Shown piece by piece: positions 21,058 through 34,609 of a DNA stretch of 39,534 nt. The DNA lies in the IMG/VR virus record IMGVR_UViG_3300047550_001153, positions 1-39,534 of that record; one strand, written 5' to 3'. Both the position numbers and the translations under genes were made by a program. The stretch comes from a virus. The stretch's first letter is position 1. Each line of letters starts with the position of its first letter. The notes below the pieces were generated by a model. The model saw only the letters and a program-made list of their open reading frames with translations, did no database searches and had not been told where the DNA came from.

Positions 21058-21214
21058 GGGTTTTAGGCGCTAAACCTAGGAATTTACGCAGTGCTTTGAC
21101 ATCACGCACGATGATGCTGGCACCTGAGGAGTAGGCGATAAAAACACGCCCTGACCAGTCAACGTAGGTTTCGACGGATTGAAACCTGCTGATCGCCAGC
21201 CTATCCCGCTTCAT
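20879..21214 (-). CDS. Hypothetical protein (111 aa)
   Basis: Starts inside the end of the zinc-ribbon gene (14-base overlap). The N-terminal part reads FQSVETYVDWSGRVFIAYSS, then GASIIVRDVKALRKFLGLAP and DSWLVSLAAIDDE, mixed beta and helix, well formed; the last 40 residues are polar and low in complexity. Those last residues lie opposite the C-terminal part of the NblA-like gene, so the two genes overlap tail to tail by 179 bases. Function not recognised. Confidence 0.6.
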   Translation of the reverse strand: MKRDRLAISRFQSVETYVDWSGRVFIAYSSGASIIVRDVKALRKFLGLAPKTPSRESLDSWLVSLAAIDDERQSRKTQQTTGLSTEVLETGFGPECHLDETDPNHQTRTVI

Positions 21215-21443
21215 AAAACCTCCAGTTGATCATTGGTTTGCGCTTTTTGCCTTCGCAGTGCCAGGTCACAGTGCCTTTGATGGCGTACTGCTCAGGCTGC
21301 TGTACGGTATGAAAGCGATGCCCGCAGGCTACGCACTTTCTAGACCGCCAAAAGCTACGGTCATCAGCGCGTTCTGTTGTTGAAATATCTGTGATCTCAG
21401 AGCCACATTCAGGGCATGGCGGACCCATCCTGTTTGCGCCCAT
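21201..21443 (-). CDS. NrdR-like zinc-ribbon protein
   Basis: 80 residues, three bases after the sigma factor gene. A four-cysteine ribbon (PPCPECGSEITD, then SRKCVACGHRFHTVQQPE) has the C-x2-C...C-x2-C spacing and the following 'RF-T-E/Q' phrase of the NrdR N-terminal zinc ribbon. The ATP-cone domain of true NrdR is absent. It may bind DNA or the host polymerase. Being co-transcribed with the sigma factor suggests a role in transcription control, which is inference. ATG 21428 is an alternative start. Confidence 0.65.
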   Translation of the reverse strand: MGANRMGPPCPECGSEITDISTTERADDRSFWRSRKCVACGHRFHTVQQPEQYAIKGTVTWHCEGKKRKPMINWRFYEAG

Positions 21444-21446
21444 GGT

Positions 21447-22367
21447 TCAACCCCAACCCCAGATCAAGCTGGAGCTGCTGCTCTGTGTTGAAGGCTTTTT
21501 TGGCGGTCCCTTCCTTAGTATCAGCTTCATTTCGTTTTCAGCGATGTGAACTCGTCGTTTGGTTGTGTCTTGCGCGATGTTGAGGATCTTGGCGATGTCT
21601 CGCATGGATCGAGGTTGATTGTCTTTTAACCCGTGTCGTAGCTCGATGATCTGCCTGCTTAGATCGCTCATGTGATCTAACGCTTGGTGAACAGCTTCAA
21701 TCTTTGTGTCTTGCTCTAGGTCTTCGCCTACAGGATCATCGTGTGCAGCGATCATCTCGATGTAAGTGCTGGCTTCACCGGAGTTGTTGACCTGAGCATC
21801 AAGGCTGCCAGCATCGATAGAAGCTGCCAAGTAATCTTTCATTGCCCGTGGCGTGACGTTAGCCACTTCAGCACATTGTTCAATGCTTGGGTTAAATCCG
21901 TGCAGACGGTTGTGCTCTAGCGTGAAGGCTCGAACTTTACGCAACGCATCAGTTGCGCCGGTAGGCAGTTTGATGATTCGATCTTGTACTTGGATCGAGC
22001 GCATGATGCCTTGCCTGATCCACCAGTAGGCGTAGGTGCTGAACTTGTAGCCTCGTTCAGGGTCAAACAGTTCAACGGCACGAATCAAACCGATGTTGCC
22101 TTCCTGGATTAAATCTTGCAGGGTAAGGCGATTGGTCAGGTGTTTATATTTCTTGGCGACACCGACAACAAGGCGCAGGTTGCCTTGAATCATGCGCTGC
22201 TTTGCACGCTTACCAAGTTTGATGATCCGCTGCTCTGCTTTAGTTGGCTGATCGCTGCAAATCTCATCCATCCGCTTGATAGCGTGACCCAGCTCGATCT
22301 CCTCTGCGCCTGTTAGCAAAGGGATCTTGCCGATTTCATTGAGGTAATCGCGCAGCGTGTCAGACAT
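21447..22367 (-). CDS. Phage-encoded sigma factor, cyanobacterial sigma70 type
   Basis: 306 residues. Region 1.2 is at 3-33 (DTLRDYLNEIGKIPLLT), region 2 at about 60-133 (NLRLVVGVAKKY, DLIQEGNIGLIRAVELFDPE, KFSTYAYWWIRQGIMRSIQ), then region 3, and region 4 at about 230-290. Core binding and promoter melting parts are strongly conserved. Region 4.2, which reads the -35 box, has NIAQDTTKRRVHIAENEMK in place of the usual R-E-R-(I/V)-R-Q-I-E helix, so promoter choice may differ from the host's. A Ser-rich tail ends in WGWG. It should redirect host RNA polymerase to phage genes. No clear ribosome site; a terminator hairpin lies just before the start. Confidence 0.92.
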   Translation of the reverse strand: MSDTLRDYLNEIGKIPLLTGAEEIELGHAIKRMDEICSDQPTKAEQRIIKLGKRAKQRMIQGNLRLVVGVAKKYKHLTNRLTLQDLIQEGNIGLIRAVELFDPERGYKFSTYAYWWIRQGIMRSIQVQDRIIKLPTGATDALRKVRAFTLEHNRLHGFNPSIEQCAEVANVTPRAMKDYLAASIDAGSLDAQVNNSGEASTYIEMIAAHDDPVGEDLEQDTKIEAVHQALDHMSDLSRQIIELRHGLKDNQPRSMRDIAKILNIAQDTTKRRVHIAENEMKLILRKGPPKKPSTQSSSSSLIWGWG

Positions 22368-26132: not shown

Positions 26133-26809
26133 TACTCTTGGTCCTTGTTGAAGTTGACAACCTCAGTTACAGCGCCCTTAAAGCCGTGGTAGTACAACAC
26201 GCCTTTGCGCTGCTCATCTGGGCAGAAGCATTCATAGCGAAGATCACGCACGATGTCAGTCAAAAGTGACAGAGCGTCATTCATTTGAAAGATCGCTGTC
26301 TCGTGGCAGGTTTCGCTGTCATCGTCGTACCAGTCACTCATGGCGCTAACCACAGTGCTCTGAATGACCTTGAGCTGCGTCTCGTACTTCTCTAGCCATT
26401 CACCCTTCAGCACCAAGCGTTGCAGCCTGTCTTGATGCATTTCTTTCTGCCGCTTTTCAGCGTCAATTTTGTTTTGATCCATGATCGGTGTAGTCAAAGT
26501 GCGCTCCTTGATAGCAGCTTGTGTTTCAGATGGTTGATTTGCCAAAGGCAAAGCCCAAGCGATAAGATCGTTGCCGTTTTGTGCAGGACCACGGATTGCA
26601 GCACGGATCGGGACGGTAGAAGGCACGACTGCCCACCAGTCCTCATGATCTGGCTCAAAAACCATCACATCAGCAAAGCCTTCAACTGGCGAGTGCATAA
26701 AGGCAGTTTTGCCACCTTGCTTCTTGCCGTTTTTTACGCTTTGCTCAAGGTTGCGCCAGCGATAGGGCACAGCCTCGATTGATTTTGGGTATTTGATCGT
26801 TTCGGTCAT
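26132..26809 (-). CDS. Hypothetical early protein (225 aa)
   Basis: The largest unassigned gene of the minus block. The N-terminal domain (1-100) has aromatic-rich strands (AVPYRWRNLEQSVKNGKKQG, FEPDHEDWWAVVPSTVP). The C-terminal half is a long charged helical region (RQKEMHQDRLQRLVLKGEWL) ending in an acidic domain with Cys and Tyr. No motif is recognised. It overlaps both neighbours by a few bases, so it is part of the early operon. Confidence 0.65.
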   Translation of the reverse strand: MTETIKYPKSIEAVPYRWRNLEQSVKNGKKQGGKTAFMHSPVEGFADVMVFEPDHEDWWAVVPSTVPIRAAIRGPAQNGNDLIAWALPLANQPSETQAAIKERTLTTPIMDQNKIDAEKRQKEMHQDRLQRLVLKGEWLEKYETQLKVIQSTVVSAMSDWYDDDSETCHETAIFQMNDALSLLTDIVRDLRYECFCPDEQRKGVLYYHGFKGAVTEVVNFNKDQE

Positions 26810-27015
26810 TGAAAGCCTTCTTCAAGGTCAACGGTGATGCCACATTCATCCCAAAGGCGAGCGGCATACAGCTTGCGGATCTCACGCACTTCACTTGCTT
26901 TAGCCCAGTTGCTATGGCGCATGAAATAGTGTTCGCGCTTAGTTTCCCATGTGTAGCCGGTGTAGATCAGCTCACCGGGAACAGATTTAACGGCACTGCG
27001 AAAGTTCAACGGCAT
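26806..27015 (-). CDS. Small hypothetical protein (69 aa)
   Basis: Linked to its neighbours by short overlaps. It contains SVPGELIYTGYTWETKREHY, then WAKASEVREIRKLYAARLWD and an acidic end (GITVDLEEGFQ). The fold is probably alpha/beta. No family recognised, but gene-like codon use and tight spacing support it. Confidence 0.6.
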   Translation of the reverse strand: MPLNFRSAVKSVPGELIYTGYTWETKREHYFMRHSNWAKASEVREIRKLYAARLWDECGITVDLEEGFQ

Positions 27016-27149
27016 CGTTCTGTGTTGTGCAGTAAACAGCGGTTGAGGTGGTCAGTCGGTGTAGACAGGTTGATGGCGTCTACGTCTGGACGTTTTGATA
27101 GCAACCAAAACAGCAGGCGTGTTTGCCAAGTCAGGTTGTAAGGGTTCAT
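27006..27149 (-). CDS. Small hypothetical protein (47 aa)
   Basis: A perfect AGGAGG (27157-27162) lies seven bases before the ATG, the best ribosome site in this block. The protein reads MNPYNLTWQTRLLFWLLSKR, then PDVDAINLSTPTDHLNRCLL. It overlaps the next gene by 10 bases and its start overlaps the stop of the frame before it. Function unknown. Confidence 0.6.
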   Translation of the reverse strand: MNPYNLTWQTRLLFWLLSKRPDVDAINLSTPTDHLNRCLLHNTERCR

Positions 27150-27286
27150 CGCTGAACCTCCTGTGTGCCGCTGTGGGTGCTGCCGTGATGCCCACTGGCT
27201 TCAATGCCGATCATGGCAAAGGCGGTCGCGGCAAACAAAAAGCAGATGAAGTTGTTGACGACGTTTAGCGTTTTAGTAGCTGTTCC
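27146..27286 (-). CDS. Possible small membrane protein, start unclear
   Basis: The frame ending at 27146 encodes TLNVVNNFICFLFAATAFAM, a good membrane helix, then a His/Ser-rich tail and EVQR, and its stop forms an ATGA overlap with the next gene whose ribosome site lies within it. But there is no ATG or GTG between the end of the gene before (27273) and the helix; only TTG codons or a start inside the upstream gene are available. Coordinates mark the part that looks coding. Confidence 0.35.
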   Translation of the reverse strand, partial: GTATKTLNVVNNFICFLFAATAFAMIGIEASGHHGSTHSGTQEVQR

Positions 27287-27458
27287 ACGCGTCCGCTTGC
27301 GGGACGTATTCGACGTGGAACGTTGCGCCCTCAATGCGGCAGGATCGACGGAGAATGTCGAGCTTGTCGTAGGCGACAGCTTCGAGAAATGCGGCAGTTC
27401 CAGTCGGGACGGTGCGTGTTCCAAGGTCATCGGTGATAGTGCAGAAAACTTCAAACAT
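27273..27458 (-). CDS. Small hypothetical protein (61 aa)
   Basis: Start placed at ATG 27458, four bases after the previous stop. It reads MFEVFCTITDDLGTRTVPTG, then TAAFLEAVAYDKLDILRRSC and ends VEYVPQADAWNSY. A regular mixture of strands and a helix suggests a compact fold. No family recognised. Confidence 0.6.
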   Translation of the reverse strand: MFEVFCTITDDLGTRTVPTGTAAFLEAVAYDKLDILRRSCRIEGATFHVEYVPQADAWNSY

Positions 27459-27462
27459 GAAA

Positions 27463-27621
27463 TTAGGCTTCGTTGTAGCCGTCAAACCATTCGCCATCCT
27501 TGCGGGTTTTAGGATCGCGGCACCACGCTTGTGCCTCCTCCAGTGTCAAGCCACGCTTGATGACGCGGTTGGGCTTGTCGATGTTGGGGTGGTAAAAGCG
27601 GATGATGTTGTAGGTAGCCAT
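27463..27621 (-). CDS. Small conserved phage protein (52 aa)
   Basis: Too short for common ORF cut-offs. It reads MATYNIIRFYHPNIDKPNRV, then IKRGLTLEEAQAWCRDPKTR and ends GEWFDGYNEA. I recall this pattern (I-R-F-Y, K-R-G-L-T-L-E-E-A-Q, C-R-D-P, W-F-D-G-Y) from small proteins in actinophages and other phages, always without a function. It fits neatly between its neighbours. Confidence 0.75.
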   Translation of the reverse strand: MATYNIIRFYHPNIDKPNRVIKRGLTLEEAQAWCRDPKTRKDGEWFDGYNEA

Positions 27622-27623
27622 AA

Positions 27624-27821
27624 TCAAGCTTCAAGTTGTGTTGCCATCCAGTAAGTGGGTGACCACACAGGGTCAGGTTGAATGGCATTAGTGCGTTTGC
27701 GCCAATCTTGAAACTCAATCAATGCTTCAAGATGTTCGCAGTCAGTAGGACAGGTAATTTCACCGCAATACAGTGCTTGACATGCAGTTGGGTAAAACCG
27801 TCCTGGGTAGTTTGTTTGCAT
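27624..27821 (-). CDS. Small Cys-rich protein (65 aa)
   Basis: First gene after the leader region 27822-27946. Four cysteines (ACQALYCGEITCPTDCEHLE) are spaced as a possible zinc knuckle, followed by a helix (ALIEFQDWRKRTNAI) and an aromatic end. It may bind nucleic acid or a host protein. No family name can be given with confidence. Confidence 0.65.
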   Translation of the reverse strand: MQTNYPGRFYPTACQALYCGEITCPTDCEHLEALIEFQDWRKRTNAIQPDPVWSPTYWMATQLEA

Positions 27822-27849
27822 TCAAATGTTTAGATGTGTTGTGTGTGTT

Positions 27850-27884
27850 GGGGGTTGATCGCAGCTCCGACCCCCGGCGAGCTG
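27850..27884 (-). ncRNA. Candidate pseudoknot in the 5' leader
   Basis: On the minus strand two 6-base-pair stems interlock: CAGCTC (27884-27879) pairs with GAGCTG (27867-27862), while GGGGGT (27875-27870), in the loop of the first, pairs with ACCCCC (27855-27850). Loop lengths of 3, 2 and 6 suit an H-type pseudoknot. It lies between a predicted promoter and the Cys-rich gene, so it would be in the mRNA leader. It does not match a riboswitch class I can recall. Confidence 0.4.
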
Positions 27885-27946
27885 ACCCTTATCTTGTCCA
27901 GGGCAGAGGATCCCGGGTCGTGCTATCGGGCTTGTGACCTGCCCAG

Positions 27947-27975
27947 ACCATAACAAGGAATCAATGGGTTTTCAA
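27947..27975 (-). promoter_or_regulatory. Sigma70-like promoter for genes 27821 down to 25179
   Basis: Minus-strand -35 TTGAAA (27970-27975) and -10 TATGGT (27947-27952), 17 bases apart, with TG one base before the -10 (extended -10). It lies in the 186-base gap between genes and would give a leader of about 120 bases that includes the pseudoknot candidate. Confidence 0.55.
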
Positions 27976-28007
27976 CTGGTTATGGGTGTGGTCACAATTT
28001 GTAAAGG

Positions 28008-28208
28008 TCAATCATGGCTGGCGTGCTTCATACCTGGAAAGGCGTCACCTTTGCTTTTGCCGCTTTTGCCTGCTCGCTTTCTTCCTTGAGTCTCATATCG
28101 AGCAATACTGTCAAGCCTTGCTTGCTTGGCAGCTTCTTGATAACCAGGCGGGCTCAAATCAGGTCGGTTTTGAAAAATGCTATCCCAATCAAGATCAGAG
28201 CTTGCCAA
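28008..28208 (-). CDS. Small hypothetical protein with TTG start (66 aa)
   Basis: Reads ASSDLDWDSIFQNRPDLSPP, then GYQEAAKQARLDSIARYETQ and a basic tail (GRKRAGKSGKSKGD). A stop lies nine bases before the TTG at 28208 and no ATG exists near, so TTG must be the start; the gene before ends seven bases upstream, allowing re-initiation. The basic tail suggests nucleic acid contact. It follows the RecB-like nuclease and may work with it. Confidence 0.6.
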   Translation of the reverse strand: MASSDLDWDSIFQNRPDLSPPGYQEAAKQARLDSIARYETQGRKRAGKSGKSKGDAFPGMKHASHD

Positions 28209-28214
28209 GCAGTT

Positions 28215-28838
28215 TTAGAACGGGCAGTTCTCTAGCTTAAATGCATCCCAGGCATCAACCCATGAACTCAAACACTCGTCTGGTTCATTTTGCAAAAGCT
28301 TGCAACGGTTTGGTCCTACAACAACCGTATAACACCAATCGACAGTAAGCCTTGGATGGTGATCAATCAGCATTGCAAGGTATCCACCAAGTTGTGTTTT
28401 GGCAGGTTGCCTTCTGTCAACAGCAGTTTCATTGCCCACTGTTTTAAGGTCGCCTAGTACAATCTTGCCATTTTGTGTTTGCAGTAAAAAATCAAAACTG
28501 CCGCCAACACCTTTACGTGCATCGCATAATCTATACTCAGCGGCTATTGTTTTACAGTCCTTGAATAACCAGCATTCTTGCAGTGCTTGTGTCCATTCAG
28601 GGTATTCTGTATCTGGTAAATTCTGCTGCAATAAAAGTGATTCACAAAAAGCATGAACAGCATTTCCGCGTGGTGCCCATAAATGCTGTGTTTCTTTGAA
28701 CCGCTGTTCTTGATAGGCATTGGTCTTGTTGGCGACCTTTGAAACACTGAACGGAAGCCACCGCCCTTTGTAGCGATACCGATGCAATCCAGGGTGAAAT
28801 TCCAGATCAGCGATAGGCTGCAGCACTTGCCGGACCAT
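28215..28838 (-). CDS. RecB/Cas4-like PD-(D/E)XK nuclease
   Basis: 207 residues. APRGNAVHAFCE (H62), AAEYRLCD (E101), GVGGSFDFLL (D116), VLGDLKTV (D130, K132) and the helix AKTQLGGYLAML (Q149, Y153) form the RecB-type exonuclease site, with all catalytic positions present. Lengths and motifs fit a small phage exonuclease that resects DNA ends so that the annealing protein (22993-23691) can pair strands. It is the first leftward gene from the divergent promoter region; its predicted mRNA would have a leader of only about six bases. Confidence 0.85.
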   Translation of the reverse strand: MVRQVLQPIADLEFHPGLHRYRYKGRWLPFSVSKVANKTNAYQEQRFKETQHLWAPRGNAVHAFCESLLLQQNLPDTEYPEWTQALQECWLFKDCKTIAAEYRLCDARKGVGGSFDFLLQTQNGKIVLGDLKTVGNETAVDRRQPAKTQLGGYLAMLIDHHPRLTVDWCYTVVVGPNRCKLLQNEPDECLSSWVDAWDAFKLENCPF

Positions 28839-28855
28839 GCACAGTGTGCCATAAT
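28827..28855 (+). promoter_or_regulatory. Rightward sigma70-like promoter
   Basis: -35 TTGCCG (28827-28832) and -10 CATAAT (28850-28855), 17 bases apart, about 30 bases before the RHH gene start. It begins inside the 5' end of the RecB-like gene. Its -10 shares five of six bases with the leftward promoter on the other strand. Confidence 0.6.
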
Positions 28856-28879
28856 AGCCCGGATTTCAATCCAAATCAA
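28851..28879 (-). promoter_or_regulatory. Leftward sigma70-like promoter
   Basis: On the minus strand -35 TTGATT (28874-28879) and -10 TATTAT (28851-28856), 17 bases apart. The -10 is the complement of the rightward promoter's -10, so only one polymerase can occupy the site at a time. Confidence 0.6.
28861..28872. promoter_or_regulatory. Candidate operator palindrome
   Basis: GGATT-TC-AATCC, perfect five-base arms with a two-base centre. It covers the predicted rightward start point and lies in the spacer of the leftward promoter. RHH repressors bind short palindromes of this size, and an RHH gene starts 12 bases away. Binding is inferred. Confidence 0.45.
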
Positions 28880-28884
28880 GTCCT

Positions 28885-29070
28885 ATGACAATCGGCAAGG
28901 CTATCAGCATCGCCATTGACCGCTCAATCCTGGATCGCATTGACCAACTGCAACCTTCGCACTTCACACGCAAAGCTTTTGTCAATCAACTGCTATTTGA
29001 GGCAGTTGAACAACGTTTTCGGTCTTTGACCGTCACAGAGCTCAATGCCCTGAAATCACAGGCAGAATAA
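28885..29070 (+). CDS. Ribbon-helix-helix regulator (61 aa)
   Basis: The N-terminal strand (GKAISIAIDRSILDRIDQL) and the helices (TRKAFVNQLLFEAVEQRFRS) are a typical RHH (CopG/Arc-like) fold. Being first in the rightward transcript, next to a palindrome between two overlapping promoters, it is the best candidate for the phage's early switch regulator. No other repressor is seen in the genome. A short 5-base-pair hairpin (GCAGT / ACTGC) follows the gene, without a T-run. Confidence 0.75.
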   Translation: MTIGKAISIAIDRSILDRIDQLQPSHFTRKAFVNQLLFEAVEQRFRSLTVTELNALKSQAE

Positions 29071-29126
29071 AAAACGCCCTGCAGTGGAGCAACTGCAAAG
29101 CGCCAAAATCCACAACAAAATCCTAC

Positions 29127-30014
29127 ATGAAAGCAGCTTCAAAATCAAGTGGCTTTGCTGTCATTCCGTATGGTTTGATGGATCAATGCCGTGACTATAA
29201 GGTGTGGGCAGTGTATGCAACACTGCATCGACACGGTTGGAACTCATCACAAGGATGCTTTGCATCGCTGACTACACTTTCAGATGAGACTGGTATTTCA
29301 CGAAAGGTAGTGCAACGATCATTGTCGTTGCTAGTTGAAACAGGCTGGATTTCCGTTGAACGCAGATACGGAATGACAGCCGTATATCACGTTCGTATTG
29401 ATAAAGAAATACCAAAGCGACCTAGGGCGAAAACGACCCAGGTCAAAAACGACCCAGGTCAAAAACGACCTAGGGGTCAGGTCAAAAACGACCTAAGTAC
29501 CCAGGTCGAAAACGACCTAGTAACAAGAACCCAAGAACAAGAACCCATTAACAAGAACCCATTAGTAAAGCTGCAAACGCGGTTTGCAGCGTCGTGTGAC
29601 AGCCCCTTGAACGGGGTTGGAACGGCTGCAATGCAGGGTGATGTGGCTGAGCTGGCTTTACCGGGCTTGGAGCCCGTCACAGGCACCGTTGAGCAGCCCG
29701 TGCGAAAAGCCCGCACCAAGGGGTCAGATGAGTTTGAACGGTTTTGGCAGCTTTACCTGTCAGCACCGATTCGGGCGAGCAGCCAATCCAAGCCCAAGGC
29801 ACTGGCGCAGTGGCAGAAAACGATCCGGTCTGAGCCCATTGACACCTTGTTCAATGCCTTGGAGAGTGAAATCGCTCATCAGCAATCAGCCGGTGATGCC
29901 TTTGTCAGTCCTTTGCCTGATTGTTTCCGCTGGTTGCGTGATGAACGTTATGCCACTGTGAATGAACGACCAGCAGGTGCTCAACACATCAACCATGAAC
30001 ACTACGTTTTCTGA
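29127..30014 (+). CDS. Replication initiator, lambda O-like, containing the origin
   Basis: 295 residues. The N-terminal winged helix domain (about 10-95) reads VIPYGLMDQCRDYKVWAVYA, SLTTLSDETGISRKVVQRSL and SLLVETGWISVERRYG, as in phage O-type and DnaD-like initiators. Residues 97-150 are encoded by iteron DNA (29417-29561). The C-terminal domain (about 200-285; FERFWQLYLSAP, CFRWLRDERY) probably contacts host replication proteins. Like lambda O, it should bind iterons within its own gene and recruit the host helicase. No phage helicase loader is recognised next to it. Confidence 0.8.
   Translation: MKAASKSSGFAVIPYGLMDQCRDYKVWAVYATLHRHGWNSSQGCFASLTTLSDETGISRKVVQRSLSLLVETGWISVERRYGMTAVYHVRIDKEIPKRPRAKTTQVKNDPGQKRPRGQVKNDLSTQVENDLVTRTQEQEPINKNPLVKLQTRFAASCDSPLNGVGTAAMQGDVAELALPGLEPVTGTVEQPVRKARTKGSDEFERFWQLYLSAPIRASSQSKPKALAQWQKTIRSEPIDTLFNALESEIAHQQSAGDAFVSPLPDCFRWLRDERYATVNERPAGAQHINHEHYVF
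29417..29521 (+). repeat. Iteron array 1 (candidate replication origin)
   Basis: Six copies of CGACCYA begin at 29418, 29434, 29450, 29466, 29489 and 29513; the first four are exactly 16 bases apart. Most include a GACC...GGTC inverted repeat and an A-run. Because 16 is not a multiple of three, copies are read in different frames, so the repeat is kept for the DNA and not the protein. Confidence 0.75.
29522..29561 (+). repeat. Repeat array 2 next to the iterons
   Basis: Three exact copies of AACAAGAACCCA begin at 29522, 29536 and 29550, 14 bases apart, again out of codon phase. They adjoin the iterons and are AT-richer. They may be the DNA-unwinding part of the origin or a second protein's binding sites. 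Confidence 0.6.
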
Positions 30015-30331
30015 TGGCGCTCAAACTTTTCGACTACGACAACCGCAACAAGTACGTCCACCAGGTTTTTGACAACAAGGAGCGGATCGCACCAAAGACT
30101 GTTTATCGTTTGGCAGGTTCACAGCATTTTGCTGAAACCGAGTTAGGTGATCCACGCTTCCACTACAGCCCAGTCGCTAGCGAGCACTGCATCGGCATGT
30201 ACGACGGTGATGGCTACTACTGCACCTACTGCCCACCAGTGGCGTCTCCTGGCGTTAAGGATCCGGTTGGCAGGTTCGTGAGGCATCCATGGGCACACGA
30301 GGAGCGCCAGCGGCAGGAGGCGTTCTCCTGA
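30014..30331 (+). CDS. Hypothetical protein (105 aa)
   Basis: Start overlaps the initiator stop (TGATG). It reads LKLFDYDNRNKYVHQVFDNK, then GSQHFAETELGDPRFHYSPV and MYDGDGYYCTYCPPVASPG with a C-x-x-C pair and a basic, Arg-rich end. In lambda the gene at this place is the helicase loader P, but this protein is too short and shows no match to it. Function unknown. Confidence 0.6.
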   Translation: MALKLFDYDNRNKYVHQVFDNKERIAPKTVYRLAGSQHFAETELGDPRFHYSPVASEHCIGMYDGDGYYCTYCPPVASPGVKDPVGRFVRHPWAHEERQRQEAFS

Positions 30332-30573
30332 TGGCTACGAAGCGTTTACAGCTCCTGTCCACAGAGCACGGTGCTCGTCAGCTCTTAGAACGCCTCATCG
30401 CCGCAGGACGCTGCACGCTGGAAGACCTAGACAACCCACCGCCCGGTCACCTGAACCCAGCCGCCTACCGCAACCTGCTACGCAACCCTGACCACGGCGT
30501 TGAGCCCAAGGTTCAGTTCACTGATCCACGGGACTTCCAGCCCGAACCCGCCGAAACCCCGCTTCCCTACTGA
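30331..30573 (+). CDS. Hypothetical protein (80 aa)
   Basis: Start at ATG 30331 (overlap TGATG with the gene before; AGGAGG lies upstream), not at the longer frame from 30289. It reads TKRLQLLSTEHGARQLLERL, then GRCTLEDLDNPPPGHLNPAA and a Pro-rich acidic end. No family recognised. Confidence 0.55.
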   Translation: MATKRLQLLSTEHGARQLLERLIAAGRCTLEDLDNPPPGHLNPAAYRNLLRNPDHGVEPKVQFTDPRDFQPEPAETPLPY

Positions 30574-30576
30574 CCT

Positions 30577-30921
30577 GTGAGCGAAAAACGCACTGCCGTC
30601 AAAGTCGGCTTGACCGCCGCCGAAAACGCACATATCACCCGCCAGGCTCAAGCCCTTGGCATGGATCGCTCCACACTCATGCGCCTACGGGCGCTAGGCG
30701 ACCCTGCAGTGGGCGCTGGGGGTTCCGTGGCTCCCTTGACCCTTAACGCGTACCACAGAGCCGTACAGGCTGCTCTGAGCGCGTCTCGTGGCTGTGCACC
30801 ACGCCCCATCATCGAAGCCATCGCTGCCGCCGTCTTGAACACCGTCTACAAACCCACCACCAATGTCCAAACGCAAACGCAAGCAAGCCAGCCCGCAAGA
30901 GCTGCTCACACTGATGGATGA
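30577..30921 (+). CDS. RHH/MobC-like small DNA-binding protein (114 aa)
   Basis: GTG start three bases after the gene before. The N-terminal part (RTAVKVGLTAAENAHITRQA, then QALGMDRSTLMRLRALG) looks like a ribbon-helix-helix of the type in MobC-like and plasmid accessory proteins. The remainder is Ala-rich helix with a Thr/Gln-rich tail. A role as an accessory of replication or a second regulator is inferred. Confidence 0.55.
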   Translation: MSEKRTAVKVGLTAAENAHITRQAQALGMDRSTLMRLRALGDPAVGAGGSVAPLTLNAYHRAVQAALSASRGCAPRPIIEAIAAAVLNTVYKPTTNVQTQTQASQPARAAHTDG

Positions 30922-31030
30922 GTACCTAACAGCCCTCTACCACCAGCACCATGACCCCCAGAGACCGCCTGAACTCGCTAATCGAATCTGCCGCCACATC
31001 TGTCCAACCGACCTTGGAAAACTTGTCTGA
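30863..31030 (+). CDS. Small basic hypothetical protein (55 aa)
   Basis: Not in standard ORF lengths. It overlaps the gene before by 59 bases and the next by 80, in other frames. It reads MSKRKRKQASPQELLTLMDE, then YLTALYHQHHDPQRPPELAN and RICRHICPTDLGKLV. The His/Cys content may bind metal. Both this and the overlapping 30951-31142 frame look coding; this one is slightly less certain. Confidence 0.45.
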   Translation: MSKRKRKQASPQELLTLMDEYLTALYHQHHDPQRPPELANRICRHICPTDLGKLV

Positions 31031-31142
31031 TGGCAGCGTCCGCGTTTGCATCGGCAGCACTTGCGGCACCGTCTCCTCCCATCACCTCGTCGAACCAAAA
31101 GTCAACCAGCTACGACGTGTTGCTGGCACTGTTGACGGCTAA
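30951..31142 (+). CDS. Small hypothetical protein (63 aa)
   Basis: Overlaps the gene before by 80 bases. It reads TPRDRLNSLIESAATSVQPT, then LENLSDGSVRVCIGSTCGTV and ends VNQLRRVAGTVDG, a helix followed by a beta part with two Cys. No family recognised. It is followed by a 44-base gap. Confidence 0.5.
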   Translation: MTPRDRLNSLIESAATSVQPTLENLSDGSVRVCIGSTCGTVSSHHLVEPKVNQLRRVAGTVDG

Positions 31143-31186
31143 CCATCATTCATTTACGCTAGCGCCACAATTATTCTCTACAGTTT

Positions 31187-31699
31187 GTGCCTTCAATCAA
31201 TAACCTCAAGGCTGACCATAAAAACGCCCGCAAGCGCACTGACCGCTCCGCTGAGCTAATCAAAGAATCCTTACAACGCTACGGCGCTGCGCGCTCCATC
31301 GTCATTGACGAGGAAAACCGCATCCTCGCTGGCAACGGCACCGTAGAAGGCGCCAAAGCAGCAGGCATCAAAAACGTCCGCATCATAGAAACTGATGGTG
31401 ACGAAATCATTGCCATCCGGCGCACTAACCTCACTGAAGAAGAAAAAGTAGGTCTTGCCTTGGCAGATAACCGCACATCTGATCTCAGCGAGTGGGATCA
31501 AGAAATGCTTCACAGGCTGTCGCAAGATCATGATCTCTCCCCTTGGTTTGAACAAGAAGATCTGTCAGCATTAGGTTTAGAATCCCCTGACTTTGATGCT
31601 GCTTCAGAAGATGATCAAGGACAGTTAGACAAGCTCGATAAAAAAGAAATCGATTGCACCTGCCCTGCTTGTGGTCATGAGTTCATCCAACAAATCTGA
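31187..31699 (+). CDS. ParB-like nuclease-domain protein with zinc ribbon
   Basis: 170 residues, GTG start. The ParB/sulfiredoxin domain (about 5-85) shows DHKNARKRTDRSAELIKESL, GAARSIVIDEENRILAGNGT and EGAKAAGIKNVRII; a helical part follows (LALADNRTSDLSEWDQEML). The C-terminus has a C-x-C-x2-C layout (DCTCPACGHEF) that may bind zinc. Such phage proteins usually sit beside DNA-modifying enzymes, as here with the Mom-like gene, which it overlaps by 23 bases. It probably guides or regulates modification. Confidence 0.8.
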   Translation: MPSINNLKADHKNARKRTDRSAELIKESLQRYGAARSIVIDEENRILAGNGTVEGAKAAGIKNVRIIETDGDEIIAIRRTNLTEEEKVGLALADNRTSDLSEWDQEMLHRLSQDHDLSPWFEQEDLSALGLESPDFDAASEDDQGQLDKLDKKEIDCTCPACGHEFIQQI

Positions 31700-32402
31700 T
31701 CTCAAAATTGACTGGGCTTCTCATGAAGCCGCAAAATATGCTTGCGAAAACTGGCACTACAGTCGCTGTCTGCCTGTTGGAAAACTTGTCAAGGTCGGTG
31801 CATGGGAAGATGGCAAATACATAGGCTGCGTCATATTTGGTCGTGGTGCAAACCACAATATGCTCAAACCATTCGGACTAAAACAAGATGAAGGCTGCGA
31901 GCTTGTCCGTGTTGCATTAAAAATGCATAAAACACCAGTTTCACGCATCCTTGCCATATCACTAAAATTTCTCAAAGCAAAATGCCCTGAACTAAGGCTC
32001 GTCGTCAGCTACGCAGATGCTGACCAGGATCACCACGGTGGCATTTATCAAGCAACAAACTGGATATACGATGGCCTGAAAAATCAAGGCACCATGGGAG
32101 CCTTTATCGTTAAAGGTAAAAAAATGCACCCTAAATCCGTCCACAGCAAAGGTGTAAAACAAACAATCGAACACGTCCGCAAATATCTTGACCCAAACGC
32201 ATCAATCTTCTACACACAAGGCAAACATAGATACCTCATGCCGCTAGATCAAAAAATGCGTGCTAAACTTGAACCGTTGGCTCAGCCATACCCCAAGCGC
32301 GAGAAGCAGGCGAACGTCGGGACCACCGACACAGCGGCGGAGCATCACCGACCCTCGCGCTCCAATTCCACTAATCAGGAGCTGGTTGATCATGCCAGCT
32401 AA
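31677..32402 (+). CDS. Mom-like DNA modification protein (GNAT-fold)
   Basis: 241 residues from ATG 31677 (GTG 31671 is possible). Blocks WHYSRCLPVGKLVKVGAWED (26-45), YIGCVIFGRGAN (48-59), CELVRVAL (74-81), VSRILAISLKFLK (88-100), RLVVSYAD (107-114) and GGIYQATNW (121-129) follow the Mom family of phage Mu and relatives, which convert adenine to N6-methylcarbamoyl-adenine and protect DNA from restriction. The H-Y pair (27-28), D114 and Y124 fit the family's key positions. The tail after 215 is polar and overlaps the terminase small subunit. Confidence 0.8.
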   Translation: MSSSNKSDLKIDWASHEAAKYACENWHYSRCLPVGKLVKVGAWEDGKYIGCVIFGRGANHNMLKPFGLKQDEGCELVRVALKMHKTPVSRILAISLKFLKAKCPELRLVVSYADADQDHHGGIYQATNWIYDGLKNQGTMGAFIVKGKKMHPKSVHSKGVKQTIEHVRKYLDPNASIFYTQGKHRYLMPLDQKMRAKLEPLAQPYPKREKQANVGTTDTAAEHHRPSRSNSTNQELVDHAS

Positions 32403-34267: not shown

Positions 34268-34609
34268 ATGCTCACCGGCTCCGAACTCATCGCCAAAGTC
34301 AAAGAATGCGGCGATATGAACAAGTCTGATCTCGTCCGCGAGTGTGGCTACGTCAAAGGCGACAAGCTCTGCTTCACCCAGTTCTACGAAGCACTGCTCG
34401 AAGCCAAAGGTTTTGAACTCAAGCCTGCTGCTAAGCGTGGTCGCAGCCTGACCTACAAAACCAAAGTGCAGTTCAACGGCAAACTGTCCATCGGTGAAGG
34501 TTACGTTCAGGAAATGGGCTTCAAACCTGGCGATGAGTTTGAGATCAAACTTGGTCGCAAGTCTGTTACCCTTTCCGCCGCTACCAGTGAACAACCTGTA
34601 GCAGCCTAA
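34268..34609 (+). CDS. Cyanobacterial AbrB-like transcription regulator (cyAbrB)
   Basis: 113 residues. The N-terminus (LTGSELIAKVKECGDMNKSD, then LVRECGYV) and the C-terminal AbrB DNA-binding part (YKTKVQFNGKLSIGEGYVQE, MGFKPGDEFEIKLGRKSVTL) follow host cyAbrB proteins, which control carbon/nitrogen balance and are nearly universal in cyanobacteria. It stands alone between terminase and portal with its own terminator/promoter-like region. It probably overrides or mimics the host regulator. Strong evidence for a cyanobacterial host. Confidence 0.88.
   Translation: MLTGSELIAKVKECGDMNKSDLVRECGYVKGDKLCFTQFYEALLEAKGFELKPAAKRGRSLTYKTKVQFNGKLSIGEGYVQEMGFKPGDEFEIKLGRKSVTLSAATSEQPVAA

Follow-up and report, generated by a model that had tools for sequence, protein, structure and literature searches.

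A putative bidirectional promoter between the two early arms of a phage family, with a co-varying repressor-like gene at its side

Introduction

Phage lambda has two separate early promoters, pL and pR, with cI lying between them; both are repressed by Cro, a helix-turn-helix protein, and iterons lie inside the O gene at ori. At immI of phage P22, the small ribbon-helix-helix (RHH) repressors Arc and Mnt act on divergent promoters and govern ant; the RHH fold is one strand and two helices in ~45 residues. The gene of an autorepressor usually lies directly downstream of the promoter that it controls. Some RHH proteins have other roles and serve as partition, relaxosome or antitoxin proteins.

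Bidirectional promoters have been described in bacteria by Warman, Grainger and colleagues (PMC12825309; PMC10268837). In this work, positions -7 and -11 of the two -10 elements coincide in an 18-bp arrangement (PMC10268837). How bidirectional promoters are controlled has, according to PMC12825309, received little study; the same paper reports that AcrR is a repressor of both directions at acrA/acrR and that, at the five E. coli bidirectional promoters examined, basal firing was so low that polymerases did not compete.

Here we analyze a stretch of viral DNA of 39,534 nucleotides (IMG/VR record IMGVR_UViG_3300047550_001153; hereafter the window), in which a short gap separates a leftward exonuclease gene from a rightward gene for a small RHH-like protein. 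Judged by its sequence features, this gap qualifies as a bidirectional promoter as Warman and colleagues use the term, and it would thereby bring a phage case to a promoter type that is established in bacteria. What appears to be new is a phage family that keeps a joint promoter for its two early arms, accompanied by a co-varying, repressor-like gene.

Materials and Methods

Relatives were collected in two IMG/VR scans for the exonuclease, which returned 131 loci; contigs were repeated between the scans, and ~81 loci are distinct as judged by reading the lists. Five loci with less than 115 nt upstream (L039, L054, L106, L129, and L138) were excluded, and 127 sequences, including the window, were reduced to 40 representatives at 85% identity. 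Two of these, L050 and L096, are without an RHH-like ORF and were omitted, so that counts are given over 38 representatives, window included. L066 and L068, near-copies offset by one base, were kept separate. Layout groups (shared -10, staggered, and group B) were assigned by eye. Promoter weights were E. coli values, and the host of the phage is a predicted one.

Results

The original prediction, made from the letters alone, had placed overlapping divergent promoters in the gap, and these are present base for base (Table 1), with two 17-bp spacers and 5 bp of the -10 held in common. Each of the two matches the consensus at 9 of 12 bases, -11A and -7T are reciprocal in the overlapping opposite-strand -10 elements (28850-28856), and the two predicted starts are 18 bp apart. 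The palindrome GGATT-TC-AATCC likewise lies where it had been described, within the leftward spacer and spanning the predicted start of the rightward transcript. On this anatomy, 28827-28884 is probably a sigma-70-type promoter able to fire either way.

Table 1. Features of the window discussed in the text, with coordinates and strand (promoter elements and transcription starts are predictions)
Feature	Position	Strand	Remarks
NrdR-like zinc ribbon	21201-21443	-	Directly after the sigma gene; like the NrdR N-terminus, E 1.3e-6
Phage sigma-70 factor	21447-22367	-	Distal in the leftward run; regions 1.2, 2, and 4; Sigma70_r2 E 5e-21
Exonuclease	28215-28826	-	First leftward gene; PHROG 298 E 2e-16, and relatives
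Putative bidirectional promoter (whole intergenic gap)	28827-28884		58 bp, from probable exonuclease start (GTG 28826-28824) to RHH-like start (ATG 28885)
Rightward -35 TTGCCG	28827-28832	+	17 nt to -10
Second palindrome GCACA-G-TGTGC (GCACAGTGTGC)	28839-28849		Over the predicted leftward start; best of the gap, p 0.13
Predicted leftward transcription start	28844 +/- 1	-	From the -10 position; leader ~18 nt
Rightward -10 CATAAT	28850-28855	+	Preceded by TGn (extended -10; TG two bases upstream)
Leftward -10 TATTAT	28856-28851	-	5 bp common to the rightward -10
Palindrome GGATT-TC-AATCC	28861-28872		Possible part of an operator; not significant alone
Predicted rightward transcription start	28862 +/- 1	+	From the -10 position; leader ~23 nt
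Leftward -35 TTGATT	28879-28874	-	17 nt to -10
RHH-like DNA-binding protein, 61 aa	28885-29070	+	First rightward gene; weak profile and structure matches
O-like replication initiation protein	29127-30014	+	Second rightward gene; PHROG 270 E 1e-20
Iteron-like repeats in the initiator gene	29414-29561	+	5 of ~21 nt (CAGGTCAAAAACGACCCAGGT-like units), then 3 of period 14
NikA-like protein	30577-30921	+	PF21983 E 3e-5, 24.5 bits (family cut-off 27)
Mom-like DNA modification protein	31671-32402	+	PF25680 E 6.5e-47; adjoins the ParB-like protein
AbrB-like regulator	34268-34609	+	PF14250 E 1e-23; between terminase and portal genes

Taken by itself, the double promoter of the window is hardly beyond chance. 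Five promoter-like sites were found in 26500-31500 against 3.5 +/- 1.6 in shuffles, and the double pattern TTG-N20-YANNNTR-N20-CAA, which occurs once in the window, would be expected 0.31 times, and 26 of 100 shuffles contained it once or more. For the gap with 12 bp on each side, the shuffle p was 0.007 for the left promoter and 0.022 for the right. What takes the double promoter beyond chance is that it is kept in relatives.

In the ORF list, the exonuclease begins at ATG 28838. Because the relatives align mostly from residue 4-6 on, and because an in-frame stop codon, TAA, shortly precedes the aligned start in L007 and L011, the gene probably begins at GTG 28826-28824, and ATG 28838 is probably wrong. 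Sequences of the L046, L053, and L056 types have no ATG, GTG, or TTG at the aligned exonuclease start, and theirs is likely shifted or unusual.

The original prediction had named lack of conservation among relatives as one of the points on which it could fail. A small RHH-like ORF lies divergent from the exonuclease, across a gap of 47-68 nt, in 38 of the 40 representatives, and 18 of the 38 gaps (grouped by eye) have a shared -10 of the form YANNNTR. Within these 18, TTG stands at the rightward -35 at exactly 17 bp in 16, at the leftward -35 at exactly 17 bp in only 12, and a pyrimidine is found at the rightward -12 in every case. The outer -10 positions (-12, -11, and -7 for both strands) are constant across this group; the inner three bases vary (TAA, TTA, ATC, CCC, TCC, TAT, ACT, ATA, AAA, CAG, GCT, GAA). 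Twelve of the 38 gaps contain the double pattern in its strict 53-bp form, against a single hit elsewhere across 344,708 bases from these sequences. The putative bidirectional promoter is thus kept beyond chance in the phage family. Shuffles of single gaps, scored with the E. coli weights, gave p < 0.05 for the leftward promoter in 9 of 38 and for the rightward promoter in 16 of 38.

By the symmetry of the -10, a leftward TATTAT entails a rightward ATAAT; the independent evidence for the rightward promoter is therefore its -35 TTG, its -12 pyrimidine, and the TG before its -10, the last of which is present in the window, L006, L008, L015, and L024. This -35 TTG adjoins the exonuclease start codon, and a translational role might be conceivable. 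It is not a general feature of the start codon, however, since a TTG beside the exonuclease start is missing in all nine group-B relatives and in eight of the nine staggered ones.

The shared -10 is missing in 20 of the 38 gaps, of which nine are staggered by ~8 bp, nine have another layout with TAGGAT and ACCCTA boxes, and two are unclassed. In the exonuclease tree, a single branch separates the staggered group from the rest, whereas neither of the other layout groups is set apart in this way: shared -10 and group-B layouts interleave, and the three groups together require eight changes. Such interleaving suggests that the promoter plus the RHH gene have been exchanged between phages. A search of bacterial genomes for relatives gave 11 pattern matches, none of them confirmed, and no prophage or host was found thereby; INPHARED held no near-identical phage DNA.

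The genes on either side fit the recombination and replication arms first proposed, with an exonuclease (PHROG 298) leftward and a replication initiator (PHROG 270) rightward. The leftward run also encodes a dCTP deaminase-like protein, a weak Sak-like annealing protein, RusA, SSB, and an HNH nuclease. Top matches of its sigma factor are the rpsD4/RpoD genes of the Synechococcus siphoviruses S-CBS1, S-CBS3, and KBS-S-2A, and the phage is probably cyanobacterial. Rightward, the initiator is followed by a ParB-like protein, the Mom-like protein, terminase, and structural genes. The iteron-like repeats at 29414-29561 are a probable replication origin, the Mom-like protein may provide anti-restriction DNA modification, and the NikA-like protein may be a further RHH protein of the rightward arm. 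When one ORF downstream of the RHH gene was chosen in each of ten relatives, it was a replication initiator in seven; in the other three it belonged to PHROG 30286 (annotated as of unknown function), two of these having low-score primase/helicase or polymerase/primase matches. No match was found in the record, which may be incomplete, to Phage_integrase, Resolvase, or HTH_3, the last being the family searched for a lambda-type cI/Cro helix-turn-helix repressor.

The product of the adjacent rightward gene, predicted at the outset to be an RHH regulator, is RHH-like and likely, if not proven, to be a true RHH protein; the matches behind this are weak. In its model (pLDDT 83), residues 13-22 and 29-60 form helices, and the N-terminus before them is extended. 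Of the 22 family members, seven matched PHROG 4738, a "transcriptional repressor" (lowest E 1.4e-4; 0.046 for the window's own), four matched PHROG 876, and two matched VapB_antitoxin, the best at 0.0029 and below the Pfam cut-off. For the protein itself no Pfam family rose above its cut-off, Foldseek with the model gave nothing significant (E > 1), and the family alignment had no match among PDB sequences up to E 10. When 11 chains of solved structures were realigned, MazE-mt1 ranked highest (Z 4.7, rmsd 5.5, 58 aligned) and TraM second (Z 4.3, rmsd 2.0, 41 aligned), at Z values that are low in both cases; we take both to be RHH proteins.

Although the RHH and exonuclease genes both abut the gap, the gap DNA tracks the RHH gene only. 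With exonuclease distances held fixed, gap distances followed RHH distances (partial rank Mantel 0.28, permutation p 0.0005), whereas with RHH distances held fixed they did not follow those of the exonuclease (-0.17, p 1.0), values to be read in the light of partial Mantel tests overstating significance where sequences share ancestry. Divided by gap piece, the signal over all 38 was 0.28 in the middle 20 bp, 0.21 on the RHH side, and 0.14 on the exonuclease side; without the staggered clade, the respective values were 0.34, 0.13, and 0.22. This peak in mid-gap speaks against simple linkage, since linkage would place the signal beside the RHH gene. Because it is in mid-gap, over the -10, that co-variation with the RHH protein is greatest, the protein most likely shuts both arms together, as AcrR or lambda Cro would.

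Palindromes in the gaps were considered as candidate operators. Singly, they reached p < 0.05 in only 5 of the 38 gaps. Considered together (32 of 38 relatives), palindromes over the -10 were enriched relative to shuffles (z 4.4), in part through the symmetry of the -10 itself, as were palindromes centered ~18-20 bp before the RHH start (z 3.6), shared ancestry weakening these statistics as it does the Mantel tests. The window's GGATT-TC-AATCC belongs to the latter position, ~19 bp before the RHH start. Relatives carry GGTGTA-N3-TACACC (L017, L021, and L034), CGGTTC-C-GAACCG (L108), or AGCGC-N7-GCGCT (L037 and L111). With up to two mismatches, GGATTTCAATCC has 7 matches in the window, its own two strands included, against 2.55 expected, and 7 were reached in 1 of 100 shuffles; four of the five other matches lie in the rightward late region. 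As a conserved operator, the exact GGATTTCAATCC was rejected, the sequence not being kept in relatives. Together with co-variation that is strongest over the -10 region, this tells against the palindrome as the operator that it had been proposed to be.

Discussion

We consider it reasonably probable that the gap is one bidirectional promoter whose two early arms undergo a timed, RHH-mediated shut-off, and that it does not choose between them. Polymerase would sit on one -10 heptamer (CATAATA) in either orientation. The leftward early operon would supply the exonuclease, the weak Sak-like annealing protein, RusA, and SSB, with the sigma factor at its far end; the rightward early operon would supply the RHH-like protein and then the O-like initiator with its iteron-like repeats. 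Early in infection, both directions would fire at modest rates. As the first rightward product, the RHH protein would accumulate, bind in mid-gap over the shared -10, and turn down both arms together, in the manner of Cro at pL and pR or of AcrR, and the phage sigma factor may take over later transcription.

The original prediction instead saw a mutually exclusive switch, in which polymerase bound in one orientation shuts out the opposite one, with the RHH protein deciding between recombination and replication. There is a precedent at soxS/soxR, where polymerase is confined to a single orientation by a regulator of the MerR family. Two such -10 elements cannot be occupied together, and steric exclusion is stated in PMC12825309; the same paper, however, reports negligible basal competition at the five E. 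coli promoters. Exclusion alone would make a poor switch, since basal firing at those five promoters is too low for mutual hindrance, and it loses its appeal as a regulatory principle. Moreover, both arms look like ordinary early lytic ones and their pairing is kept across the family, RHH co-variation peaks over the -10, where binding would block both directions, and nothing points to lysogeny, given that the record, which may be incomplete, lacks matches to Phage_integrase, HTH_3, and Resolvase. The idea that recombination or replication is chosen thus finds little footing, and we judge such a switch unlikely. Nor does the gap hold up as the whole decision circuit of a phage with no other visible repressor: besides the lack of those three matches, an AbrB-like protein, a NikA-like one (below its cut-off), an NrdR-like zinc ribbon, and a sigma-70 factor are also encoded.

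These same putative regulators (sigma, AbrB-like, NikA-like, and NrdR-like) lend some weight to a reading in which the RHH protein is a replication or partition accessory, as are some of its kind, and control of the gap falls to the host or to a different phage regulator. Against this, the mid-gap co-varies with the RHH type, and the small gene lies directly downstream of the promoter, where an autorepressor would be expected; we regard such an accessory role as rather improbable. It is also quite unlikely that only the leftward promoter matters, the rightward one arising incidentally from the symmetry of the -10. A leftward TATWAT does supply -11A and -7T on the other strand free, and the leftward score is the higher one in the window, L006, L008, and L015. 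Symmetry does not account, however, for the rightward TTG at exactly 17 bp (16/18), the -12 pyrimidine (18/18), or the TG before the rightward -10 in the window and the four relatives named above, and the RHH and initiator genes need a promoter in a gap of just 58 bp.

Beyond the preferred reading of joint shut-off, we entertain a broader idea, though doubtfully: that the two early promoters of a lambda-like plan have collapsed into one polymerase site, the orientation of which would set the ratio of recombination/sigma to replication transcripts, and that the RHH gene plus the promoter core may pass between phages as an exchangeable specificity unit, resembling an immunity region that lacks cI. 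The 38 gaps offer a natural series in which promoter core and presumed repressor change together, and two questions could be put to them in a reporter strain: can a single repressor control both directions, and what determines how much each direction is transcribed relative to the other? Our searches of the open-access literature found no bidirectional promoter joining phage early genes and Cro and no RHH protein with a cyanophage promoter of this sort, either of which may be described elsewhere; they also found no start-site data for the early region of such cyanophage-like viruses.

Compared with the bacterial bidirectional promoters, the phage gap is alike in its opposite-strand -10 elements sharing -11A/-7T, its predicted starts 18 bp apart, and a -35 on each side; it differs in that both spacings are 17 bp, that the promoter fills the entire gap, and that it is kept in a family, its starts being predicted ones. 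At acrA/acrR of E. coli, too, a regulator gene lies on one side of a bidirectional promoter and both sides are repressed, as we propose for the phage, but AcrR is a TetR-family protein facing an efflux operon, whereas the phage has an RHH-like protein and early genes. Arc and Mnt of P22 share with the present protein their small size, divergent promoters, and probably the RHH fold, a likeness by description; they govern ant, in contrast to the exonuclease and replication arms here. Closer in gene order is the cultured phage S-CBS3 (NC_015465), where exonuclease gp43 and the RHH-like gp44, annotated only as a hypothetical protein, are divergent, a helicase adjoins gp44, and a sigma gene lies in the leftward run; its gap, as judged by eye, looks staggered and not shared, and its exonuclease has 39.5% identity. 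Unlike lambda, our phage has one shared promoter, an RHH-like protein in the place of Cro, and no cI-like gene found in the record. In both, nevertheless, recombination genes lie leftward and a small DNA-binding protein lies rightward, followed by an O or O-like initiator with internal iterons, and in this respect the early region looks like a compact version of lambda early control.
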